Below, one piece after another: positions 34,947 to 45,805 of a DNA stretch of 64,000 nt (position 1 is its first letter; the number at the start of each line of letters is the position of its first letter). The position numbers and the translations under genes are program-made. Below the pieces are notes generated by a model. The model worked only from the letters and a program-made list of their open reading frames with translations, was not told the origin of the DNA and ran no database searches. The DNA is from Nitratidesulfovibrio termitidis HI1. GTDB taxonomy: Bacteria; Desulfobacterota; Desulfovibrionia; Desulfovibrionales; Desulfovibrionaceae. The stretch is from assembly GCF_000504305.1 (NCBI RefSeq), contig NZ_KI632512.1, forward strand, positions 3,128,220-3,192,219, read 5' to 3'.

Positions 34947-35241
34947 TGCGCACCCCTCGTGGGTGCGTGGGTTGAAACTCCAGGTTGGCAGGCTTGTTCT
35001 TGTAGAGCGCCTCGTCGCACCCCTCGCGGGTGCGTGAATAGAAACATGCATTGGGCGTTCGGAACCGGGCAGTTCGACAGCCGCACCGCTCGCGGGGGCG
35101 TGGATAGAAACCTGGGTGCCTACGCCCAAGGCCAGCGCATGCCGGTCGCACCCCTCGTGGGTGCGTGGGTTGAAACTGCGCGTCCACAGTGACTATCTGG
35201 CTCTTTTCCGTCGCACTCCTCCGGTGTGCGCACCACGCGGC
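34947..35241 (+). CRISPR. Short degenerate CRISPR array, type I-C-like repeats, no cas genes
   Basis: Four 32-bp repeats at 34947-34978, 35014-35045, 35080-35111 and 35145-35176, with a fifth, truncated-looking one at 35210-35241. Spacers are 35, 34, 33 and 33 bp. The repeats start GTCGCACCCCTCG, contain an imperfect GCACCCCTCGTGGGTGC hairpin and end GAAAC, as type I-C repeats do. Repeats 1 and 4 are nearly identical (ending GTGGGTTGAAAC). Repeats 2 and 3 have drifted (ATAGAAAC ends). Repeat 5 keeps only its 5' half. No leader is possible on the left (stop codon 9 bp away) and no cas gene is in the window. It appears to be a decaying or orphan array. Confidence 0.85.
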
Positions 35242-36075: not shown

Positions 36076-38679
36076 CTAGTGGTAGCGGCCCTGCAGGAAA
36101 TTATCCGCGAAGCGTTGCACCGCCGCCTCGTCCACCATCAGCATGTCCAACTGGCGGGTGACGATGAGCAGCCGCCCCAGTTGCACCAGCCGCTCGGCGA
36201 TCTGCGGCGCCGCGAACTTCTGGTAACGGGCCGTGACCATGTCGCCACGTACCTCGACGTGGAATCCGATGGATTCCAGAATGATGCCGATGCAGCGCAC
36301 CCGGCGGTTCTTGCGCGTTTCGTCCGCTGCCCCGCCCTTGAACTGGAAGGTGATGTAGTTCTTGTTCATGGTCTGGCCGCAGTAGGCGTCCAGCACCCCG
36401 TAATGGTAGCCCACACGTGAACTGAAGTTCAGGTATTTGTCGGAGATCAGCGCATAGCTGCGGTCGCCGAAGCGCTGCCCGTGCATGGTGGGCGGCTCGA
36501 TCATGTGGCGGCTCATGACGGACAGAAAGCCGCTGACATCCACCGGGCGCGGGCCGCTCTGGTGCACGTCCGGGTCCAGCATGCCGCCCAGCAGGGCCTT
36601 GAACGGGGCGGATGTCACCTGTTCCGGCCACACGTAGGGACCGTCGACTTCGGCCAGCCCTCCGCCCAGGTCGATGACATGCAGGTCAAGCGGTACACGG
36701 GCCTTCATTTCCACGGCCACCGCCCCGGCATCGGAGACGGTGTCCGACAGCTGGAACATGTGGGCATAGGACAGCTCGTGCACGAAGCGCATCACGTCGT
36801 GGATGGTCCGGCATGCGGCGGGGGTGAAATCGTTGGCCTTGGGGTCGTGCAGGTTGAGGGGCGAGATCAGCGCGGCGACCTGCTTGAGCAGGTTGTGGAT
36901 GGGCGTGTCGCGCAGGCACACGGCGCGTTCCTCGCGCAGGGGCAGCAGTTCCTCTACCCGGCCCTGGTAGACCCGGCAGGAAAAGGCATCCACGGTCACC
37001 TGCGCGCCCACGGGGAGCGCGGCTATGGCTCCGGGCGCGTTGACGATGGTGGGCACGCCGAATTCCCGCGCCAGCGAGGCCATGTGCCCGGTAATGCTGC
37101 CCGCCTCGGCCACGATGGCCTGGGCGCGCTGCATGACCAGCACGTATGAGGGCGAGGAGTGCGTGGCCACCAGTATGCCCCCTTCCGGGAACAGGGCCAG
37201 TTCCTCGGCGTTGGCGGGCTGCACCACCGGGCCGCAGCCCACGCCGGGGCAGGCGGGTTCGCCGCCGTGCAACAGCACCGGGTAGCCTTCGATGCGCGGG
37301 GTGGTGCGCGCTGCACCGCTCGGGGTGGTGGTCAGCGGGCGGGCCTGGAGCAGCAGCAGCCGCCCGGCAGGGTCCAGCGCCCATTCCACGTCCTGCGGCA
37401 CGCCATAGTGCGCTTCCACCCGCATGCCGATACCGGCCAGTTCGGCGGCCTGGGCGTCGGTCAGACAGGGAAGGTCGCGCTGGGGTTCGGGCACGTCCTC
37501 CTCGCGCAGGCGGCCATCGTCGCCGGGGGCCAGGCGGTGCGCCTTGCAGGCCACGTTGCGTGACAGCGGACGGGGGGCATCCTGGCGGCTGAACAGCCAG
37601 GTGTCCGGCTCCATCTCGCCGTCCACCACTGCGGCGCCCAGCCCCCATGCGGCGTTGATGACCATGGAATCGGACAGCAGGTCCACCGGGTGGCGGGTGA
37701 ACAGCACCCCGGCGGCTACGGAATCGACCATTTCCATGCAGGCCACGGCCATGGCGCTGGCGTCCAGGGTGATGCCCTGATGCAGCCGGTACACGATGGC
37801 CTGGGGCATGAACAGGCTTGCCACCACCCGTTTCCATGCGTCCACCACGCCGTCGCGGCTGACGTTCAGCACCGACAGATACTGCCCGGCAAAGGAAACG
37901 TGGCTGTCCTCGCTGAGGGCGCTGGAGCGCACGGCCAGCCGCAATGGGGCGTCGGCGCCTTCTGTTCCGGGTGCCCCGAAGGCCTCGTCGCAGGCGGTCT
38001 GCAAGGCGTCCACCACATCCGGCGGCACGCTGGCGGCCACGAACAGGGCCTGGATGTCCTCGGCCACGTCCAGCACGCTTTCCGGATCCTGGGTATCCAC
38101 ATCGCGCAGACGTTTGCGTATTTCGCCCATCAGCCCGTCATGTTCTATGAAGGCGTAGTAGGCGCGGGTGGTTACGGCAAAGCCGCGGGGCACCGGCACC
38201 CCCACGCGCGAGGTCAGTTCGCCAAGGTTGGCGCACTTGCCGCCCACCCAGTCCACCATGTCGCCGTTGATGGCGGCAAAGGGCAGGGCGTAGGCCTCCA
38301 CCGTGGCCTGGGGGCGGCTTTCCAGCAGTCCGGTGATGTTGGCGTTGATGCGTTCCACCACGCCGGGCAGGGTGGGGTACGCGCCATCCGAAATGGCATT
38401 GAGCGCGGTGGCCATGCGCATGGCGTGGAACACCGCCCGCGTGGCTTGCGAGCGCAGCCACGTGGCCCCGAACAGGGTGCACCCCGCGATCTTCTCGTCC
38501 ATGTCGGCGAGAATGCGCGCCAGTCCGGCGTTGGAGTCCAGCAGGTCCTTGAAGTGGGCATAGCGGGCGCGGAATACCCGCATGACCCGTTCGCGCGATT
38601 CGGCGTCCACGGCGCGCCTGCGGCCAAACAGCCCGCGCAGGCGTTCCAGCAGAGAGACAGGCGGCGGCGCGGCCAGCAT
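36076..38679 (-). CDS. PEP-synthase-like phosphotransferase lacking the C-terminal PEP/pyruvate barrel
   Basis: 867 residues; CGGAGG seven bases before the ATG lies within the end of the upstream gene. Residues 1-130 are helical and not recognised. 137-448 form the PPDK/PEPS ATP-grasp domain (GGKCANLGELTSRVGVPVPR, LAVRSSALSEDSHVSFAGQ, ending LLLLQARPLT). 495-572 is the swivelling domain with phospho-acceptor His 532 in GSITGHMASLAREFGVP. Residues 575-867 replace the usual PEP/pyruvate-binding TIM barrel by a domain of unknown kind (DLGGGLAEVDGPYVWPE, NFSSRVGYHYGVLDAY). ATP-driven phospho-His chemistry is likely, but the acceptor is unknown. It is coupled to the sigma-54 activator gene 3 bp upstream. 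Confidence 0.85.
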   Translation of the reverse strand: MLAAPPPVSLLERLRGLFGRRRAVDAESRERVMRVFRARYAHFKDLLDSNAGLARILADMDEKIAGCTLFGATWLRSQATRAVFHAMRMATALNAISDGAYPTLPGVVERINANITGLLESRPQATVEAYALPFAAINGDMVDWVGGKCANLGELTSRVGVPVPRGFAVTTRAYYAFIEHDGLMGEIRKRLRDVDTQDPESVLDVAEDIQALFVAASVPPDVVDALQTACDEAFGAPGTEGADAPLRLAVRSSALSEDSHVSFAGQYLSVLNVSRDGVVDAWKRVVASLFMPQAIVYRLHQGITLDASAMAVACMEMVDSVAAGVLFTRHPVDLLSDSMVINAAWGLGAAVVDGEMEPDTWLFSRQDAPRPLSRNVACKAHRLAPGDDGRLREEDVPEPQRDLPCLTDAQAAELAGIGMRVEAHYGVPQDVEWALDPAGRLLLLQARPLTTTPSGAARTTPRIEGYPVLLHGGEPACPGVGCGPVVQPANAEELALFPEGGILVATHSSPSYVLVMQRAQAIVAEAGSITGHMASLAREFGVPTIVNAPGAIAALPVGAQVTVDAFSCRVYQGRVEELLPLREERAVCLRDTPIHNLLKQVAALISPLNLHDPKANDFTPAACRTIHDVMRFVHELSYAHMFQLSDTVSDAGAVAVEMKARVPLDLHVIDLGGGLAEVDGPYVWPEQVTSAPFKALLGGMLDPDVHQSGPRPVDVSGFLSVMSRHMIEPPTMHGQRFGDRSYALISDKYLNFSSRVGYHYGVLDAYCGQTMNKNYITFQFKGGAADETRKNRRVRCIGIILESIGFHVEVRGDMVTARYQKFAAPQIAERLVQLGRLLIVTRQLDMLMVDEAAVQRFADNFLQGRYH

Positions 38680-38682
38680 GGT

Positions 38683-41517
38683 CTACCTCCGTGGCGGTAC
38701 CGGCACGCCGCCATCCGTCAGCACGTACCGGGTGGCGGGGCCCTTGCCCACCTTGCGGATGAAGCCCTTGCGCACCATGTCCTGCAGGTCGTACTGCGCC
38801 GTGCGCACGGGTATCTCGTTGCCCACGATGTCCTGATACTGGGTGCGGGTGATGCCGCCGTTGCGGCTGATGAACTCCCAGGCGGCACGTTGGCGCGGGT
38901 TCAGTGTGGAGAGGGGCGGCACGGCCCCGCCGTCCTGCCCGTTGCGCATCTGGCGTCCGTTGCCGGGGGGCATGCCCGCGCGGTCGTTTCTGCCCTGCGC
39001 GCCGTGCTGGGCGGCGCCCGATCTGTCCGACCAGTCCTGCCCGCCAGTGCCGGGGCCGGTGGCCACGATGCGCCCGCTGACCGGGTCGTAGATGGTGCCC
39101 GTCTGCGCGGACATGGGCGCATTGCCGGATGCGCCGGGCATGCCGTACGCCGCCTGCGCGCCATACGGAACCGCATGGACGGCGCCGTCACCGGGGTAGG
39201 GCGCGGTGGGCTGGCCATGCCCCTGGGGCATGACGCCCTGCGGGTGGGCGGGCTGGCCCGTGTGCGCAGGTGCCGGACTTGGCGGCAGCAACGCCCCGTG
39301 CGACAGGGTGGGGTCCAGTTCCGCGCCAAAGCGCAGGTCTTCGGCGTACAGGGTGTCCCCTTCGGCAAAGGCCACCGCGCGGGTGATGCAGTTCTTCACT
39401 TCGCGCACGTTGCCCGGCCAGCCGTAGGCCAGCAGTTTTTCCAGCGCCCCGCGCGAAAGGCCCATGGCCGGGCGCTTCAGGGTTTGCGCGGCCTGCTTCA
39501 GAAAGTAGTCGGCCAGGGCGGGGATGTCCTCGCGCCGATCGCGCAAGGGGGGCGTGTTGATGGTGATCACCGCCAGCCGGTAGTACAGGTCCTCGCGGAA
39601 GGCGCCCTGCCGGGCGCATTCCTTCAGGTCCACGTTGGTGGCGGCAATGATGCGCGCCTCGAAGGGCGTTTCGTCGTCGCTGCCCAGGGGACGGATGCGC
39701 CGCACCGACAGGGCGCGCAGCAGGGCCTGCTGCACCTTGGGCGAGGCGTTGCCGATTTCGTCGAGGTGCAGCGTGCCGCCGTCTGCGGCCACGAAGGCCC
39801 CCTTGCGCTCGCCCCGCGCCTCGGAAAAGGCTCCCTTCACGTGCCCGAACAGGGCGTCCAGCAGCAGGTTTTCATCCAGCGCCCCGCAATTGATGGAAAT
39901 GAACGGCCCGCCCGCCCGGTCGCTGGTCATGTGGATGGCCTCGGCGGCCAGTTCCTTGCCGGTGCCCGTTTCGCCGATGATCAGCACGTCGGCCTCGACA
40001 CCGGCGGCCTTGCGGATCATCCCGCGCAGGCTGCGCACCGTTTCGCTGGTGCCCACGATGCCGGGCATGGTGTCCTGCGGCGAAAGCTGGCTCTGTGGCT
40101 GCTGTTGCGCGATTTCCGTGTCCAGGCAGACCCGCTGCCGCCGCCGGGTGGACTGGATGTGTTCCTCGCGCAGGCGCAGCTCCTCGTTGCGAGCCTGCAA
40201 GGCGGCCAGCATGGCGTTGGTGGTCTGGCGCAGGGCTTCCGCCTCCGGGTGCACCCGGCCCATCTCTATGGGGGCAAGGTCGCCCGATTCCAGCTTGCCG
40301 CTGGTTTCCTCGGCGATGCGGTGCAGCGGCCCGGCAATGCCGCGCCCCAGCATGCCCAGGATGAATGCGGCCGCCGCGCTGGCGCACAGCCCGAACACGA
40401 ACAGCGCCCCGTACATCTTGTAGGACGCGGCCATGGCCAGGAAGCTGGTGTCGGTGTACGCGATGCCGCCCACCACCACGGTATTGGCGTCGGGCCCTTC
40501 GCTGAAGGTGACCGGCGCGTAGCTGATGTAGAAGGCTCGGTTCATGGGCGAAGGGTCTTCCAGCATGGTGCCCAGGCGACTCTGGCCGGAATTGCCGGAC
40601 TGCACATCGGTGACCATGCCCCAGTATCGTTCCTGCTCCGGGTTGGGGCGGAAGGCCGCCTCGAAGCCGGAACGGCCGAAGTCGCCGCGCATGCCCGAAC
40701 GCACCGTGTCGGTGGACAGGTCAAGGTTGGGATGTTCCGGCGATTCCGACTGGAACAGGATCCACCCGTGCGCGTCGAAGAAGAAGCTGCGGTGCTTCTC
40801 CGTCTCTTCCGGAAAGATGTACAGCGGCGACCGGCGCGATGCGTAGACCGACAGCACGTTGCGCAGGGCCAGCATGTCCACCGACAGGGTGAGCAGCCCG
40901 GTCTGGTTGCCCGCGGCATCCAGCACGGGCGTGGTCAGCCGCAGCACGTGCATGGACAGCCCCTGCACGGTGCCCGCCGTGGGCACCGAGGGGTAGACCA
41001 CCTCCGTGGGGGCGGAAATGCGCACGAAGCCGGGCTTGGGCTCTTGCGCGTTCTGGCGGGTAAGCGGGCCGAACCGGGTGGCCAGGGCCTGTTCCAGCGG
41101 CACCATCCATACGTCGCGTCCGGTGTTCAGCAACACCAGGCGATTGTCCGGCGTGGCCCCCTGATAGGCGATCTCGCGGTACAGGGTGCCCATGGTTTCT
41201 GCGCGGGTGCGCAGATGGTGGGCCAGCGAGGCAGGGGAGATGTCGGTGCGGGCAAGGTACAGCAGTTCACGCCGGGCCTGCTGGAGCACCTGCTCCATCT
41301 CGTGGGCCTGGGCCAGGGTGGCCAGCAGTGAACTGCGCCCCAGCGCGTCGTGCAGGAAGTTCTGGGAGATGCGGTGGGATATGACCCCGCTGATGACCAG
41401 CAGCAGCATGAATGCGGGCAGCGCCGCGAAGAGCAGCCGTTTGGCGATGCTCCATTCCGAGAAATTACCTTCCAGGCGGAACAGCGTGCCGAGCAGCGGC
41501 GGCCGATAGTAGCGCAT
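38683..41517 (-). CDS. Membrane-anchored sigma-54-type activator with sensor domain and atypical GAFTGA loop
   Basis: 944 residues from ATG 41517 (GGGAGAAGGC upstream). A membrane helix at 30-48, an extracytoplasmic sensor domain to about 365, a second helix about 367-390, a HAMP-like linker, then an AAA+ domain of the enhancer-binding class from about 487. Walker A is GETGTGKE (515-522), Walker B GGTLHLDEIG (580-589), with REDLYYRLAV and GYGWPGNVRE-type sensor II (AYGWPGNVREVKN). The sigma-54 contact loop reads GAFSEA (562-567) instead of GAFTGA. After a long Pro/Gly-rich linker (about 735-860) the C-terminus is a winged-helix-like segment (LNPRQRAAWEFISRNGGITR) rather than a Fis-type helix-turn-helix. 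It is divergent from a sigma-54 promoter, so it probably controls that operon. Confidence 0.85.
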   Translation of the reverse strand: MRYYRPPLLGTLFRLEGNFSEWSIAKRLLFAALPAFMLLLVISGVISHRISQNFLHDALGRSSLLATLAQAHEMEQVLQQARRELLYLARTDISPASLAHHLRTRAETMGTLYREIAYQGATPDNRLVLLNTGRDVWMVPLEQALATRFGPLTRQNAQEPKPGFVRISAPTEVVYPSVPTAGTVQGLSMHVLRLTTPVLDAAGNQTGLLTLSVDMLALRNVLSVYASRRSPLYIFPEETEKHRSFFFDAHGWILFQSESPEHPNLDLSTDTVRSGMRGDFGRSGFEAAFRPNPEQERYWGMVTDVQSGNSGQSRLGTMLEDPSPMNRAFYISYAPVTFSEGPDANTVVVGGIAYTDTSFLAMAASYKMYGALFVFGLCASAAAAFILGMLGRGIAGPLHRIAEETSGKLESGDLAPIEMGRVHPEAEALRQTTNAMLAALQARNEELRLREEHIQSTRRRQRVCLDTEIAQQQPQSQLSPQDTMPGIVGTSETVRSLRGMIRKAAGVEADVLIIGETGTGKELAAEAIHMTSDRAGGPFISINCGALDENLLLDALFGHVKGAFSEARGERKGAFVAADGGTLHLDEIGNASPKVQQALLRALSVRRIRPLGSDDETPFEARIIAATNVDLKECARQGAFREDLYYRLAVITINTPPLRDRREDIPALADYFLKQAAQTLKRPAMGLSRGALEKLLAYGWPGNVREVKNCITRAVAFAEGDTLYAEDLRFGAELDPTLSHGALLPPSPAPAHTGQPAHPQGVMPQGHGQPTAPYPGDGAVHAVPYGAQAAYGMPGASGNAPMSAQTGTIYDPVSGRIVATGPGTGGQDWSDRSGAAQHGAQGRNDRAGMPPGNGRQMRNGQDGGAVPPLSTLNPRQRAAWEFISRNGGITRTQYQDIVGNEIPVRTAQYDLQDMVRKGFIRKVGKGPATRYVLTDGGVPVPPRR

Positions 41518-41821
41518 GCCTTCTCCCTGCCGTGGGTGCGGGGCGGTGGCCGCCCGTATGGGACCGGAGCGCCGGAATGCCGGGGTGGGCGACACCGGTG
41601 GCTTCGTCGTTTCAGGCCGCCGGGGCGGGCGTCTTTCCTGCGGCGGAAGGTCCGCTCCGAGCCGCCACGCCCGTGCATTTCCACTGCATTCGCATGAGGT
41701 GTACGCCTTTGCTTATGCGCGTTTCGCCCGTCTTTCGCAACTGGCGGCGCGAAAGGGGCGTGGCTGCGCGGGGGCGGCCCGTTCCTTTTGCGATGGCGAT
41801 TGAGAAATTTTGTACAAGTCT
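41518..41821. other. Divergent region between activator and permease operon, left part
   Basis: 300 bp with no supported gene. GC-rich near the activator start, turning AT-rich at about 41805. The promoter of the leftward activator gene must lie here but no clear hexamers were found. Confidence 0.35.
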
Positions 41822-41850
41822 TTGCGCAATCGTGCAAGCGCAACTTGCGC
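41822..41850. promoter_or_regulatory. Candidate activator binding sites (TTGCGC/GCGCAA repeats)
   Basis: The half-sites TTGCGC (41822), GCGCAA (41838) and TTGCGC (41845) include a perfect 13-bp inverted repeat GCGCAACTTGCGC (41838-41850). They lie about 45-70 bp upstream of the -24 element of the sigma-54 promoter, where an enhancer-binding protein could act. Confidence 0.5.
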
Positions 41851-41890
41851 GAAATGAAATTTATTACAAAATATTACCATGTTAATTTGA

Positions 41891-41908
41891 CTGGCACGCG
41901 GGTTGCTA
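41891..41908 (+). promoter_or_regulatory. Sigma-54 promoter of the TauE/SafE operon
   Basis: CTGGCACGCGGGTTGCTA matches the consensus TGGCACG-N4-TTGCW at every conserved base, with GG at 41893-41894 and GC at 41905-41906. The predicted start is near 41918, giving a leader of about 170 bp to the first gene. The promoter lies in an AT-rich patch. Confidence 0.88.
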
Positions 41909-42086
41909 TGCCCAGATCGCGCGGCAACTGCTGCGCAATGCACAGGACGAAAACCGCACTCCAAGGGGGGGTGCGGGTGGACGCAAAGGCGGACTCCGCC
42001 GCTGGACGGGATCGCTTGAAGCGAGGACGGGCCGGAGGCGGCAGTCGAAAAGGGCGGCAGAGCTGCCCGCAATCTGGAGGATGCAC

Positions 42087-42380
42087 ATGAGAAGGATCAA
42101 GACGCTGTTCATGTCGCTGCTGACGTTCGTGCTGGCCATTCCCGGCCTGGCGCTGGCCGCAGGCGGTGGCGGCGCACCCGTGGTCATCGTGGCCGACACC
42201 CGCAAGCTGGACGGCGTGATGGCCTGGTGGGCCAACCTGTACAACGAGAGCCACGTCCAGTTCACCACCCTTACCATCATCCTGATCCCGCTGGTGGGCG
42301 TGATCTTCGGCGTGATCGCCGACATCGTGATGAACTGGATCGGCATCGACCTGAAGTCCCGCGAACTGGCCGAGCACTAG
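42087..42380 (+). CDS. Small membrane protein, first gene of the sigma-54 operon
   Basis: 97 residues from the second of two close ATGs (CTGGAGG six bases upstream; ATG 42081 is too close). An N-terminal signal-like helix (TLFMSLLTFVLAIPGLALA) is followed by a short periplasmic part (VVIVADTRKLDGVMAWWANL) and a second helix (TLTIILIPLVGVIFGVIADI). The family was not recognised. The stop is 28 bp before a TauE/SafE permease, so the two may act together in the membrane. Confidence 0.75.
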   Translation: MRRIKTLFMSLLTFVLAIPGLALAAGGGGAPVVIVADTRKLDGVMAWWANLYNESHVQFTTLTIILIPLVGVIFGVIADIVMNWIGIDLKSRELAEH

Positions 42381-42408: not shown

Positions 42409-43461
42409 ATGGAATGGCTCTATATCCTCATGCCCATCGCGGGCGTTAAGATCTTCTGGCCCGGCCTGATCATTCTCGGCGTGGGCGTCGGCATCATCGG
42501 CGGCTTCTTCGGCATGGGCGGCGCCTGGATGGTTACCCCCGGCCTGAACATCCTCGGCTTTCCCATGGCCTTCGCCATCGGGACCGACATCGCCCACATG
42601 GCGGGCAAGTCGCTCATTTCAACCATGCGCCACGGCAGGTTCGGCAACGTGGACTACAAGCTGGGCCTGATCATGCTGGTCGGCACCGTCGTGGGCTTCG
42701 AAGTGGGCGCCCAGATGGTCATGTGGCTCGAGCGTGTCGGCAACGTCGAAAAGGTCGTGCGCTGGATCTACATCGCCCTGCTGACCCTGATCGCGTGGAT
42801 GGTCTTCCATGACGTGGCCAAGCGCCGCGAAAAGGAACGCCAGGCCGCCGCGCGCGGTGAAACCCTGGCCGCCGGGGCCACCGGCGTCGAGTGGCACAAG
42901 GCCCTGCACAAGATCAAGATTCCCCCCATGGTGCATCTGCATGAAGCCGGCATCTACTGCTCCGCGTGGCTGCCCATCTTCGTCAGCTTCGCCACCGGCT
43001 GGCTGGCCGGCATCCTGGGCATCGGCGGCGGCCTCATCCGCATGCCCGCCCTCATCTACCTCATCGGCTGCCCGACCCACGTGGCCGTCGGCACCGACCT
43101 GTTCGAAGTCATGATCTCCGGCCTGTACGGCGCCGCCACCTACACCTACAAGGGCCGCACCGAACTCGTCGCCGCCATGATCATGCTGGTGGGCGCTTCC
43201 GTGGGCGCGCAGGTCGGCGCCGTGGCGACCAAGTACATCAAGGGTTACGGCATCCGCATCGCCTTCGGTCTCGCCGTGGTCGGCTGCGCCGTCTCCATCC
43301 TCATGAAGCTCGTGCAGCCCTGGGTGCCCCAGTTCAAGTCCGCGCTGGACACCGGCGCCACCGTTCTGGTGCTGGGCCTGGTTTCCGGCATGTCGCTGTA
43401 CATCTTCGTCCGCATGGTTCAGGGCGTGAAGATGGAACTGGCCCGCAAGAAGGCCGCCTAG
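42409..43461 (+). CDS. TauE/SafE family anion permease
   Basis: 350 residues, about eight membrane helices; AAAGGAG precedes the ATG. Two homologous halves carry the family's glycine-rich motif: GGFFGMGGAWMVTPGLNILG and GILGIGGGLIRMPALIYLIG. Each is followed by a conserved short segment (FAIGTDIAHM, VAVGTDLFEV). Relatives export or import sulfite, sulfonates or sulfoacetate. In a sulfate reducer sulfite or a related sulfur anion is plausible, but the substrate is inferred only from the family. Confidence 0.9.
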   Translation: MEWLYILMPIAGVKIFWPGLIILGVGVGIIGGFFGMGGAWMVTPGLNILGFPMAFAIGTDIAHMAGKSLISTMRHGRFGNVDYKLGLIMLVGTVVGFEVGAQMVMWLERVGNVEKVVRWIYIALLTLIAWMVFHDVAKRREKERQAAARGETLAAGATGVEWHKALHKIKIPPMVHLHEAGIYCSAWLPIFVSFATGWLAGILGIGGGLIRMPALIYLIGCPTHVAVGTDLFEVMISGLYGAATYTYKGRTELVAAMIMLVGASVGAQVGAVATKYIKGYGIRIAFGLAVVGCAVSILMKLVQPWVPQFKSALDTGATVLVLGLVSGMSLYIFVRMVQGVKMELARKKAA

Positions 43462-43489: not shown

Positions 43490-44095
43490 ATGAGACGCTT
43501 TCTGCTGATGCTGCTCGTGGTGGCGCTGCCCCTCGGCCTCGTGGGCTGCGGCGAATACGGCAAGGTGGACCAGGGCCGGGTGATCGCATACGACAAGAAC
43601 GCGAAAACCGTCACCCTGATCCAGGACAAGGCCATGGAGCCGCTGAACCCGGACTACTCCATCCTGCCTCCGCATACCTACAAGCTGCCCACCGACCCCG
43701 CCGAAATGGGTCCGGAACCCCGGGCCGGGCAGCGCATGAAGCTGGATACCAAGGCCAACATCATCCGCATCTTCAACACCAAGACCCAGGCGTTCGAAGA
43801 CATCGCGTTCAAGATGGTGGACCTGCAGGAGAACATCGACCGCAACCATCCGCTGGTGTTCGACAAGGCCACGGAAACCGCCAAGAAGTTCCCCATGGTG
43901 GACCGCGACAAGAAGACCGTGACCATCTACTCCGGTCGCCAGAAGATGCTGTGCACCATCTCGCTGCCTGACGAATACTTCGCCCTGCCCGATGCCACCT
44001 GGGATGCCGGCGACGAAGTGCGCGTGTACTACAAGGCCGAGGGCGTGTCCCTGCGCTTCATGAACATCTCCAGAACCGACATCTTCAAGAAGTAG
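43490..44095 (+). CDS. DUF4881-type lipoprotein
   Basis: 201 residues; GGAGAAAACAT precedes the ATG. A lipoprotein signal with lipobox LVGC (Cys 19). The mature protein is beta-rich with repeated strand patterns (RVIAYDKNAKTVTLIQDK, KTVTIYSGRQKML, VRVYYKAEGVSLRF). It fits the DUF4881 family of Desulfovibrio-type bacteria. It sits on the periplasmic side of the inner or the outer membrane; function unknown. Third gene of the permease operon. Confidence 0.8.
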   Translation: MRRFLLMLLVVALPLGLVGCGEYGKVDQGRVIAYDKNAKTVTLIQDKAMEPLNPDYSILPPHTYKLPTDPAEMGPEPRAGQRMKLDTKANIIRIFNTKTQAFEDIAFKMVDLQENIDRNHPLVFDKATETAKKFPMVDRDKKTVTIYSGRQKMLCTISLPDEYFALPDATWDAGDEVRVYYKAEGVSLRFMNISRTDIFKK

Positions 44096-44230
44096 CCTGA
44101 CGGCGGCGGGGCCGGACACGGTCCCGCCGCTTCCTCCCCTTCCGCCCCGCCACCCACCCCACGGGGAGCGCTGATGGCGGGCCGGAACGGGCGGAAGAAG
44201 CCCGAGGACAACATGACAAGGAGCGACACC

Positions 44231-44455
44231 GTGGAAGACCAGATGGATTACGCAACCACCGTGGCCCACAAGCTGCTGGTACTGACCATGAACCTGCTGG
44301 CCATCGCGGCGGTGTGCGCGGGCATGTACCGCGCCTCGTTCGTGCCGGACGAGTTCACCCCGGTGTTCTTCAAGACCTTCTTCGCGGTGCTGGCGCCTTC
44401 GCTGGTGCTGGGCTGGTGCGCCAAGCGCTGGCTGCGCGCACGGGGCCAGGCGTGA
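44231..44455 (+). CDS. Small two-helix membrane protein
   Basis: 74 residues from a GTG that has AAGGAG seven bases upstream; ATGs at 44174 and 44213 lack a site. Two membrane helices (LLVLTMNLLAIAAVCAGMY and FFAVLAPSLVLGWCAKRWL). Not recognised. Its stop overlaps the next start by four bases (GTGA). Confidence 0.7.
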   Translation: MEDQMDYATTVAHKLLVLTMNLLAIAAVCAGMYRASFVPDEFTPVFFKTFFAVLAPSLVLGWCAKRWLRARGQA

Positions 44456-45273
44456 CCGGATCGGTACACCTGGCGCGCCTGCACCAGCGTTCCGGGCGGG
44501 TGGCGCTGCTGCTGCTGCTGGTCTGCGCGCTCAGTCTCGTGGACGGGCTGGTGGGCAGGATGCAGCAGGGCTTCAACCGCACCGACGCGCTGCCCGGCGG
44601 CGAATATCCGGTCAGCGGGCCGTTGCCGCCCCGTACCGAAGCCATCGAGGACATGGTCATCGAGGGCGGCACGGATGACAGGCAGGTGCGCCTTGTGCCC
44701 TACGAAATCTATTCCGGCTACTGGCTGGGCGGAAAGATGTGGCGCGGCGCCATCAAGGTGGGGGCCAGCCCCGCCTCGGGCGAATACGTCATTCGCGTGC
44801 ACGACAAGTACGGAGAAAAGCAGAACCCCACCCTGATCTTTGCGGTGGTGGTGTGGCCCGACGAGGCCACCATGAAGGCCAATTCTCCGGAACGGCTCAC
44901 CCGCTGGTTCGGCGTCAGCGCCTTTGGCCTGTCCGCGCTGGTGCTGCCCTTCGCCCTGCTGGCGGGGTTCGGCAACTTCATGCTGGGCCGGGCCTGGAAC
45001 CGGGCGCTGCTGGCCGAGCGCAGCGCGGAAATCTACAAGCTGCTGCCCGCGCCGGACGGCGGCGGCAAGGACGTTACCTTCGGGCTTGGCGTGCAGCACG
45101 GGGCCAGCCCCGGCATGCGCTGCCGCATCAGCCGTCCGGACGGCACGCCCGTGGGCGAGGCCCGGGTGGTGGAATGCACGGCGCGCGATTGCGTGGCCCG
45201 CATACCGCATGGCCTGAACGTGCAACCCGGCGACGTGGTGACCCTGCCCGACATCGTGGCTCCGCCCGTATAA
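44452..45273 (+). CDS. Membrane protein with periplasmic loop and cytoplasmic tail, function unknown
   Basis: 273 residues from a GTG overlapping the previous stop. Helix 1 (VALLLLLVCALSLVDGLVG), a periplasmic domain of about 130 residues with beta strands (YEIYSGYWLGGKMWRGAIKV, SGEYVIRVHDKYGEKQN), helix 2 (FGVSAFGLSALVLPFALLAG), and a cytoplasmic beta-rich tail (LGVQHGASPGMRCRISRPDG, GLNVQPGDVVTLPD). The overlap suggests coupled synthesis with the small membrane protein, possibly as a complex with the permease. No known family seen. Confidence 0.7.
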   Translation: MTGSVHLARLHQRSGRVALLLLLVCALSLVDGLVGRMQQGFNRTDALPGGEYPVSGPLPPRTEAIEDMVIEGGTDDRQVRLVPYEIYSGYWLGGKMWRGAIKVGASPASGEYVIRVHDKYGEKQNPTLIFAVVVWPDEATMKANSPERLTRWFGVSAFGLSALVLPFALLAGFGNFMLGRAWNRALLAERSAEIYKLLPAPDGGGKDVTFGLGVQHGASPGMRCRISRPDGTPVGEARVVECTARDCVARIPHGLNVQPGDVVTLPDIVAPPV

Positions 45274-45394: not shown

Positions 45395-45805
45395 ATGGAC
45401 TGTCCGGAATTGCTGAAAAGCTGCCGCATTCTGCTGGTGGACGACGAGGACGGCTTTCGTGATGCGCTGTTGCGCCGCATGCGCAAGCGCGGCGTGACCA
45501 TGGATGGCGTGGCCAGCGGCCGGGACGCGCTGGATTGGCTGGCCCGCCAGACGGTGGACGTGGTGATCCTGGACATCCAGCTGGGCGACATGGATGGCCG
45601 CGACGTGCTGCGCGAAATCCGCAAGTCCGGCGGTGAAGACCCGGCGGTGATCATCCTGAGCGGGCACGCTTACACGGATATCGCCCTGGACGCCATGCGC
45701 GCCGGGGCCAGCGACTACCTGCTCAAGCCCTGCCCGGTGGAAGAGTTGCTGGAGCGCATCGAGACCGCGTTCGAGCAGGTGTTGGAGCGCCGCGCCGCGC
45801 AGTGA
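45395..45805 (+). CDS. Single-domain response regulator
   Basis: 136 residues; GGAGGAGAGC precedes the ATG. A receiver domain only: ILLVDDEDGF, phospho-acceptor Asp in VVILDIQLGDMDGRD, ILSGHAYTD, and Lys in YLLKPCPVEEL. It resembles the receiver at 30986 (same LLVDDE and LLKPC motifs). It follows the permease operon after 120 bp and may or may not be co-transcribed. The cognate kinase is not obvious. Confidence 0.9.
   Translation: MDCPELLKSCRILLVDDEDGFRDALLRRMRKRGVTMDGVASGRDALDWLARQTVDVVILDIQLGDMDGRDVLREIRKSGGEDPAVIILSGHAYTDIALDAMRAGASDYLLKPCPVEELLERIETAFEQVLERRAAQ

Follow-up and report, generated by a model that had tools for sequence, protein, structure and literature searches.

The TauE/SafE permeases form a common and poorly understood family. 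Sulfate reducers carry many of their genes, several of which are clustered with the same phosphohistidine enzyme. For Desulfovibrio vulgaris, comparative genomics predicted that DVU0151 is a single-component bEBP with a GAFSEA motif and that its target is DVU0150-DVU0146, labelled 'transmembrane transport' (Kazakov et al. 2015, PMC4641369). According to that paper, the Fis HTH is missing from DVU0151, a winged-helix match is found in some orthologues, and the sigma-54 promoter is divergent. A wet test of this promoter-activator-operon link was not found in the literature, and searches on DVU0149, DVU0150, DVU0152, DUF4881 or the G20 loci returned nothing beyond Kazakov et al. For the 'nitrate cluster' of D. 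vulgaris, Korte et al. (2014, PMC4001038) isolated mutants that were hit in TauE, in DVU0250, in the receiver or in the PEP-synthase-like (PPS-like) enzyme; these grow in 100 mM nitrate, in which the control does not grow, and a leaky thiosulfate transporter was proposed. A cluster of this kind decides whether nitrate halts growth, which is relevant to the control of oil-field souring.

The window (the whole stretch of DNA analysed, 64,000 nucleotides of the Nitratidesulfovibrio termitidis HI1 genome) is identified by sequence comparison as carrying the DVU0151 regulon in a Nitratidesulfovibrio relative, L039-L043 being the named near relatives. Its features are as follows.

36076-38679, minus strand: PPS-like phosphotransferase with ATP-grasp, a swivel domain bearing His532, and a C-terminal domain at 36076-36951 (PF01326, PF00391).
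38683-41517, minus strand: membrane bEBP in the predicted order TM, periplasmic dCache, TM, HAMP, AAA+ (GAFSEA), winged helix (PF00158, fold model, conservation).
41822-41850, no strand assigned: predicted activator-binding cluster (UAS), from half-site enrichment and conservation in the genus.
41892-41907, plus strand: sigma-54 promoter TGGCACG-CGGG-TTGCT, from the consensus and its recurrence in activator-bearing loci.
41918-42086, plus strand: predicted structured 5' leader RNA of the operon, conserved in the genus (fold z-score, identity).
42087-42380, plus strand: DVU0150-family small protein, with signal/TM segments by inspection (NCBIfam NF040783, E 2e-44).
42409-43461, plus strand: TauE/SafE-family permease (PF01925, E 1e-58).
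43490-44095, plus strand: DUF4881 lipoprotein, which marks the type I clade (PF16222, E 4e-87).
44174-44455, plus strand: small membrane protein S6, start codon uncertain (ORF with homologues in conserved position).
44446-45273, plus strand: membrane-anchored protein S7, start codon uncertain (ORF with homologues in nearly all loci).
45395-45805, plus strand: receiver-only response regulator (PF00072, E 1e-27), kept in the loci of the genus and in the f3g46 loci.

Of the genes downstream of the promoter, the preliminary description had correctly listed the TauE/SafE permease, the DUF4881 lipoprotein and further proteins, and had left out the receiver-only response regulator. Elsewhere in the window, 34949-35177 contains a small array or remnant in which a 31-nt CRISPR-like repeat (CGCACCCCTCGTGGGTGCGTGGGTTGAAACT) occurs four times at a spacing of 65-67 nt.

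The product of the operon's first gene scored 149.8 bits against the NF040783 cut-off of 70, and its family is present in 155 of 348 genomes of the order. The permease scored 198.9 bits against the curated PF01925 cut-off of 32.6 and is 65-88% identical in 17 relatives; searches of the PDB by sequence and by fold gave no usable solved-structure relative for it. It is 88-91% identical to the TauE of L044 and L073 (family f3) and L118 (family f20), above most genomes of its own family. Conservation of the cluster across Desulfovibrionales, which the preliminary description had named as a check on its reading, was observed: the activator is divergent from DVU0150-TauE-(DUF4881)-S6-S7 in nearly all mapped loci. 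In the TauE tree a DUF4881 clade (44 rows) and a non-DUF4881 clade (19 rows) form a perfect split with 100/100 support, and the window clusters with f3 loci and with f20 loci from outside the order at 91/94, just below the starred threshold, a placement that suggests, short of establishing it, horizontal transfer of the cluster between families. In many other genera, as read from the sequences of L050, L054, L059, L066-L069, L072, L074, L075, L082 and L087, the sigma-54 promoter is separated from the DVU0150 gene by a gene for a UspA-like universal stress protein.

The PPS-like protein has 867 residues, and its ORF begins 3 bp past the activator stop codon. It has the ATP-grasp and phosphohistidine swivel of PEP synthase, and the motifs RSSA..ED, QDxEWA and GHM..REF with the swivel His532 are conserved among 26 aligned proteins, a comparison by which the catalytic residues are intact. 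The PEP/pyruvate-binding TIM barrel (PF02896) gave no match in the enzyme, whether in Pfam or among PDB chains, and the protein fell below all NCBIfam equivalog cut-offs. Its C-terminal domain of 291 residues is strongly conserved; no relative was detected in Pfam or, by profile, among PDB chains, and a fold search with the model (pLDDT 79, a predicted alpha/beta fold) was unconvincing, with a best E of 0.012 at a target TM of 0.35. Because this domain has neither the barrel nor a known match, the enzyme does not classify as a PEP synthase.

A sample of 297 genomes from across the phylum had the C-terminal domain in 107, or about a third. Linkage was counted in 16 domain-bearing genomes from outside the order, in which 33 of 44 copies lie no more than 10 kb from a TauE gene against 1.9 expected, and 23 no more than 5 kb against 0.95 expected. 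When copies were reduced to independent clusters in these genomes, the nearest TauE was within 10 kb in 21 of 30; 11 of the 44 enzyme copies are not near TauE. In 20 loci fetched from outside the order, TauE stands beside the DVU0150 gene in all 20, the enzyme is present in 19, and a DVU0151-type activator in seven, and several of the activator-less loci also show sigma-54-like sites. Judged by these neighbourhoods, the pairing of permease and enzyme seems to be the core with the wider distribution, and the dCache/sigma-54 switch is mostly a Desulfovibrionales feature. The presence of the enzyme beside the activator, which the preliminary description had considered unexpected, is by this genomic comparison a recurrent one, the enzyme being a regular companion of TauE of this type throughout the phylum. 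Gene neighbourhood alone falls short of proving a joint function of the two.

The host genome carries 11 TauE genes and four PPS-like copies, all in TauE clusters: one in the window, two at 2.56 Mb, and the last at C1:2.855-2.866 Mb, in a cluster orthologous to the nitrate cluster. Compared with the TauE of these other PPS-like clusters in the genome, the window TauE shows an identity of only about 30%. At 2.56 Mb (L092, G000:C1:2557000-2575000) a TauE gene and two PPS-like enzymes are accompanied by receiver proteins, a histidine kinase whose dCache match is below threshold, and an Fe/Mn superoxide dismutase. The nitrate-cluster orthologue (L093, G000:C1:2850000-2868000) has the order DUF169, TauE, hypothetical, kinase, receiver, enzyme and dual-specificity phosphatase, and an ArsP-type permease adjoins it. 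A paralogous system in the same genome (L047, G000:C1:1998000-2016000) consists of a divergent DVU0151-like activator, a DVU0150-like gene, a TauE (64%), a short DUF4881-like protein and S7, with the sigma-54-like sequence TGGTCCGGAGATTGCT, and is without GCGCAA sites and without a local PPS-like gene.

The reading that is favoured here, and that is considered fairly probable, is a signal-controlled anion transport module composed of a dCache bEBP, a sigma-54 operon, and a PPS-like enzyme acting on TauE or its regulator. An external ligand would be sensed by the periplasmic dCache of the DVU0151-type bEBP, whose winged helix would then sit on the GCGCAA/TTGCGC cluster with the protein as an AAA+ hexamer, a binding that we infer from homology and from the sites. 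The AAA+ domain would open the sigma-54 promoter at 41892, giving an open complex, and the promoter would drive the DVU0150-like protein, the TauE/SafE permease, the DUF4881 lipoprotein, two accessory membrane proteins and the receiver protein. The PPS-like enzyme, made with the activator, would transfer phosphate from ATP to the swivel histidine, for which the residues are present, and the new C-terminal domain would hand the phosphate on, in place of PEP/pyruvate. As the linkage and the sister-cluster phenotype suggest, phosphate delivered to an acceptor would activate or power the TauE permease or its regulator. The likeliest substrates would be small oxyanions such as thiosulfate, sulfite or nitrate. 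As to direction, the sole genetic evidence, by analogy with the distantly related nitrate cluster, points to uptake (nitrate entry, possibly thiosulfate); transfer of a substrate assignment from that cluster to the window is weak because the TauE proteins are about 30% identical, and export of sulfur anions by the window system, as the preliminary description proposed, is possible.

It is also conceivable, if unlikely, that the enzyme serves signalling, phosphorylating via the receiver or the activator and so tuning expression of the operon and not transport itself. The enzyme is co-directional with the activator and adjoins receiver and histidine kinase genes in the sister clusters, and the nitrate-cluster response regulator mutant has an identical phenotype (PMC4001038), all of which would suit such a role; however, the enzyme-TauE pairing persists where the activator is absent, and searches by Pfam, PDB profile and fold brought out no similarity of the C-terminal domain to DNA-binding or HPt domains. 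It is distinctly improbable that the enzyme has a metabolic role and is tied to the activator by nothing more than a common transcript, the permease operon working without it. Such independence would fit the six loci (L049, L054, L063, L067, L068 and L075) in which no PPS-like gene lies within the fetched 18 kb, as well as the TauE-bearing paralogue L047, but the linkage of enzyme and TauE is far above chance in varied gene orders and orientations across the phylum, the nitrate-cluster enzyme mutant has the phenotype of the TauE mutant (PMC4001038), and the PEP/pyruvate barrel is absent.

The sequence TGGCACGCGGGTTGCT at 41892-41907 on the plus strand is a perfect -24/-12 site, spanned by CTGGCACGCGGGTTGCTA at 41891-41908 on the same strand, with the -24 GG and -12 GC elements at the fixed spacing of sigma-54 promoters; the position of the -12 GC places the predicted +1 near 41918. 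The preliminary description had rated the site at 41891 as near-perfect. A scan of the window with the pattern TGGCACGNNNNTTGCW returned it as the sole match with zero mismatches, and the pattern TGGCACGNNNNTTGCT occurs six times across the 4.26-Mb genome, in which the reversed control occurs zero times. Comparison of site and bEBP positions placed four of the six perfect sites within about 3 kb of a bEBP gene, and an rpoN gene is present in the genome. At G000:C1:3613548-3614049 a frameshift has apparently split a bEBP gene, which shows as two overlapping PF00158 pieces, and a further perfect sigma-54 site lies next to it at 3614726.

A window-based scan for related loci yielded eight distinct loci, mostly near relatives of the window, and 40 loci were fetched for the mapping of Desulfovibrionales. 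Intergenic sequences were scored on the -24/-12 consensus, with a strong site defined as at least 26 of 29.5, a score that shuffles almost never reach. Such a site was present in 43 of 45 Desulfovibrionales loci with the divergent activator, and the three loci of the order that are without it scored 21.5, 22.0 and 19.5, which is the level of shuffles and gives no strong site.

The predicted UAS is made up of TTGCGCAA at 41822-41829, GCGCAA at 41838-41843 and TTGCGC at 41845-41850, within a conserved block (41801-41855) whose centre is about 80 bp upstream of the predicted start; the paired sites reported earlier are in place. The word TTGCGC is not rare in the window (92 occurrences against 87 expected), so clustering and conservation must carry the argument. 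In activator-bearing Desulfovibrionales loci 95 half-sites were counted against 27.3 +/- 4.9 in dinucleotide shuffles, an excess found mainly in loci of the DUF4881-bearing type; type II loci have few or no GCGCAA sites, and several, including the paralogue L047, have none. Across the eight loci of the genus, identity was 0.92 in the block 41801-41855, 0.83 in the promoter and 0.93 in the leader core, against 0.57 in the spacer, 0.54 in the far intergenic sequence and 0.54-0.59 in flanking spacers. The footprint of conservation is thus confined to the UAS, promoter and leader, and, since the eight loci are closely related, it is a footprint within a single genus.

The start of the activator was assigned by conservation to the ATG at 41517. 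The divergent transmembrane AAA+ activator of the preliminary description was recovered with two TM segments, a periplasmic sensor, a HAMP-like match and PF00158 (E 3e-58, residues 513-679), after which a lid domain follows. Its AAA+ domain contains GETGTGKE and GAFSEA, as expected of a bEBP, and most relatives have GAFSEA or GAFTEA; GAFSEA deviates from GAFTGA, which counts against the favoured reading, and is accepted as functional in PMC4641369. No Fis or HTH_8 match to the Fis-type C-terminal HTH, a usual but not universal feature of bEBPs, was obtained with Pfam, and the C-terminal region is conserved and corresponds to the winged helix described in PMC4641369. A model of residues 45-490 (pLDDT 83) comprises a long N-terminal helix, two PAS-like modules, the second TM and the HAMP region. 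Foldseek matched it to dCache domains of chemoreceptors (TlpA at E of about 1e-9, TlpC at 4e-8, ranging to 1e-7, with target TM 0.6-0.7), and Pfam gave no Cache match; the modelled sensor, in which a long N-terminal helix precedes a stack of two PAS-like modules and TM helices lie on either side, has the dCache fold. That another bEBP fires the promoter, and that the divergent protein has its role elsewhere or represses, is very improbable: the genome has about 40 bEBP genes, the GAFSEA motif is a variant, and other NtrC-type genes lie near the cluster outside the order (L111, L117), but within the order the promoter is lost where the divergent gene is lost (0 of 3 versus 43 of 45) and the half-site cluster is conserved together with that gene.

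Regulation of the transport operon by the membrane activator through the sigma-54 promoter is strongly supported by these comparative data. The preliminary description was right in this link; the link is not new because Kazakov et al. (2015, PMC4641369) had predicted it for D. vulgaris Hildenborough, and the promoter result is a confirmation and not a novelty. That published prediction and the structured leader at 41918-42089 were both absent from the preliminary description.

The 172 nt after the predicted start have a fold z-score of -4.86 against shuffles. One clear copy of the leader was found in each of the eight genus members, and none elsewhere among 59 searched relatives; Rfam gave no match. 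Covariation was weak, with one compensatory pair, and is uninformative because the sequences are too alike. A c-di-GMP-I (GEMM) riboswitch, suggested by eye from GGACGCAAAG, was rejected, as no Rfam GEMM match was obtained at E<=10 and none at the gathering threshold, and the motif ACGCAAAG varies within the genus. An intrinsic terminator was likewise rejected, as no T-run follows the last hairpin and no terminator was called there.

The new part, as far as gene neighbourhoods indicate, is that a PPS-like phosphate-transferring enzyme sits beside this TauE type across the whole phylum. Control of the permease by the enzyme, if real, would offer a testable mechanism by which anions enter sulfate reducers and would assign a function to a new enzyme domain. 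Tentatively, and with more doubt than confidence, the locus may represent a widespread unrecognised class of Desulfobacterota transport systems. In these, TauE/SafE would be gated or powered by an ATP-dependent phosphohistidine enzyme that carries a new acceptor domain; the arrangement would parallel PTS-type phosphorelay control but be driven by ATP, and the dCache/sigma-54 pair would be the Desulfovibrionales on-switch.

Compared with known systems, the PPS-like enzyme has the ATP-grasp and swivelling phosphohistidine domains in common with PEP synthase/pyruvate phosphate dikinase and rifampin phosphotransferase (Rph), whereas its substrate domain differs from the PEP/pyruvate barrel and has no relative in Pfam or among solved structures. 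The DVU0151/DVU0150-DVU0146 regulon of D. vulgaris Hildenborough has the orthologous activator, the divergent sigma-54 promoter and the DVU0150-family first gene, as in the window, and its regulatory link is essentially identical; the accessible text of PMC4641369 mentions no leader RNA and does not count the PPS-like enzyme among the components. In the nitrate cluster (DVU0251-DVU0245 and Dde_0597-Dde_0605, PMC4001038) TauE, a PPS-like enzyme and a receiver protein occur together, as they do in the window, but that cluster has a histidine kinase, DUF169 and a dual-specificity phosphatase where the window has a dCache bEBP and DUF4881 instead, and the TauE and PPS-like proteins of the two are distant, at about 30-35% identity.
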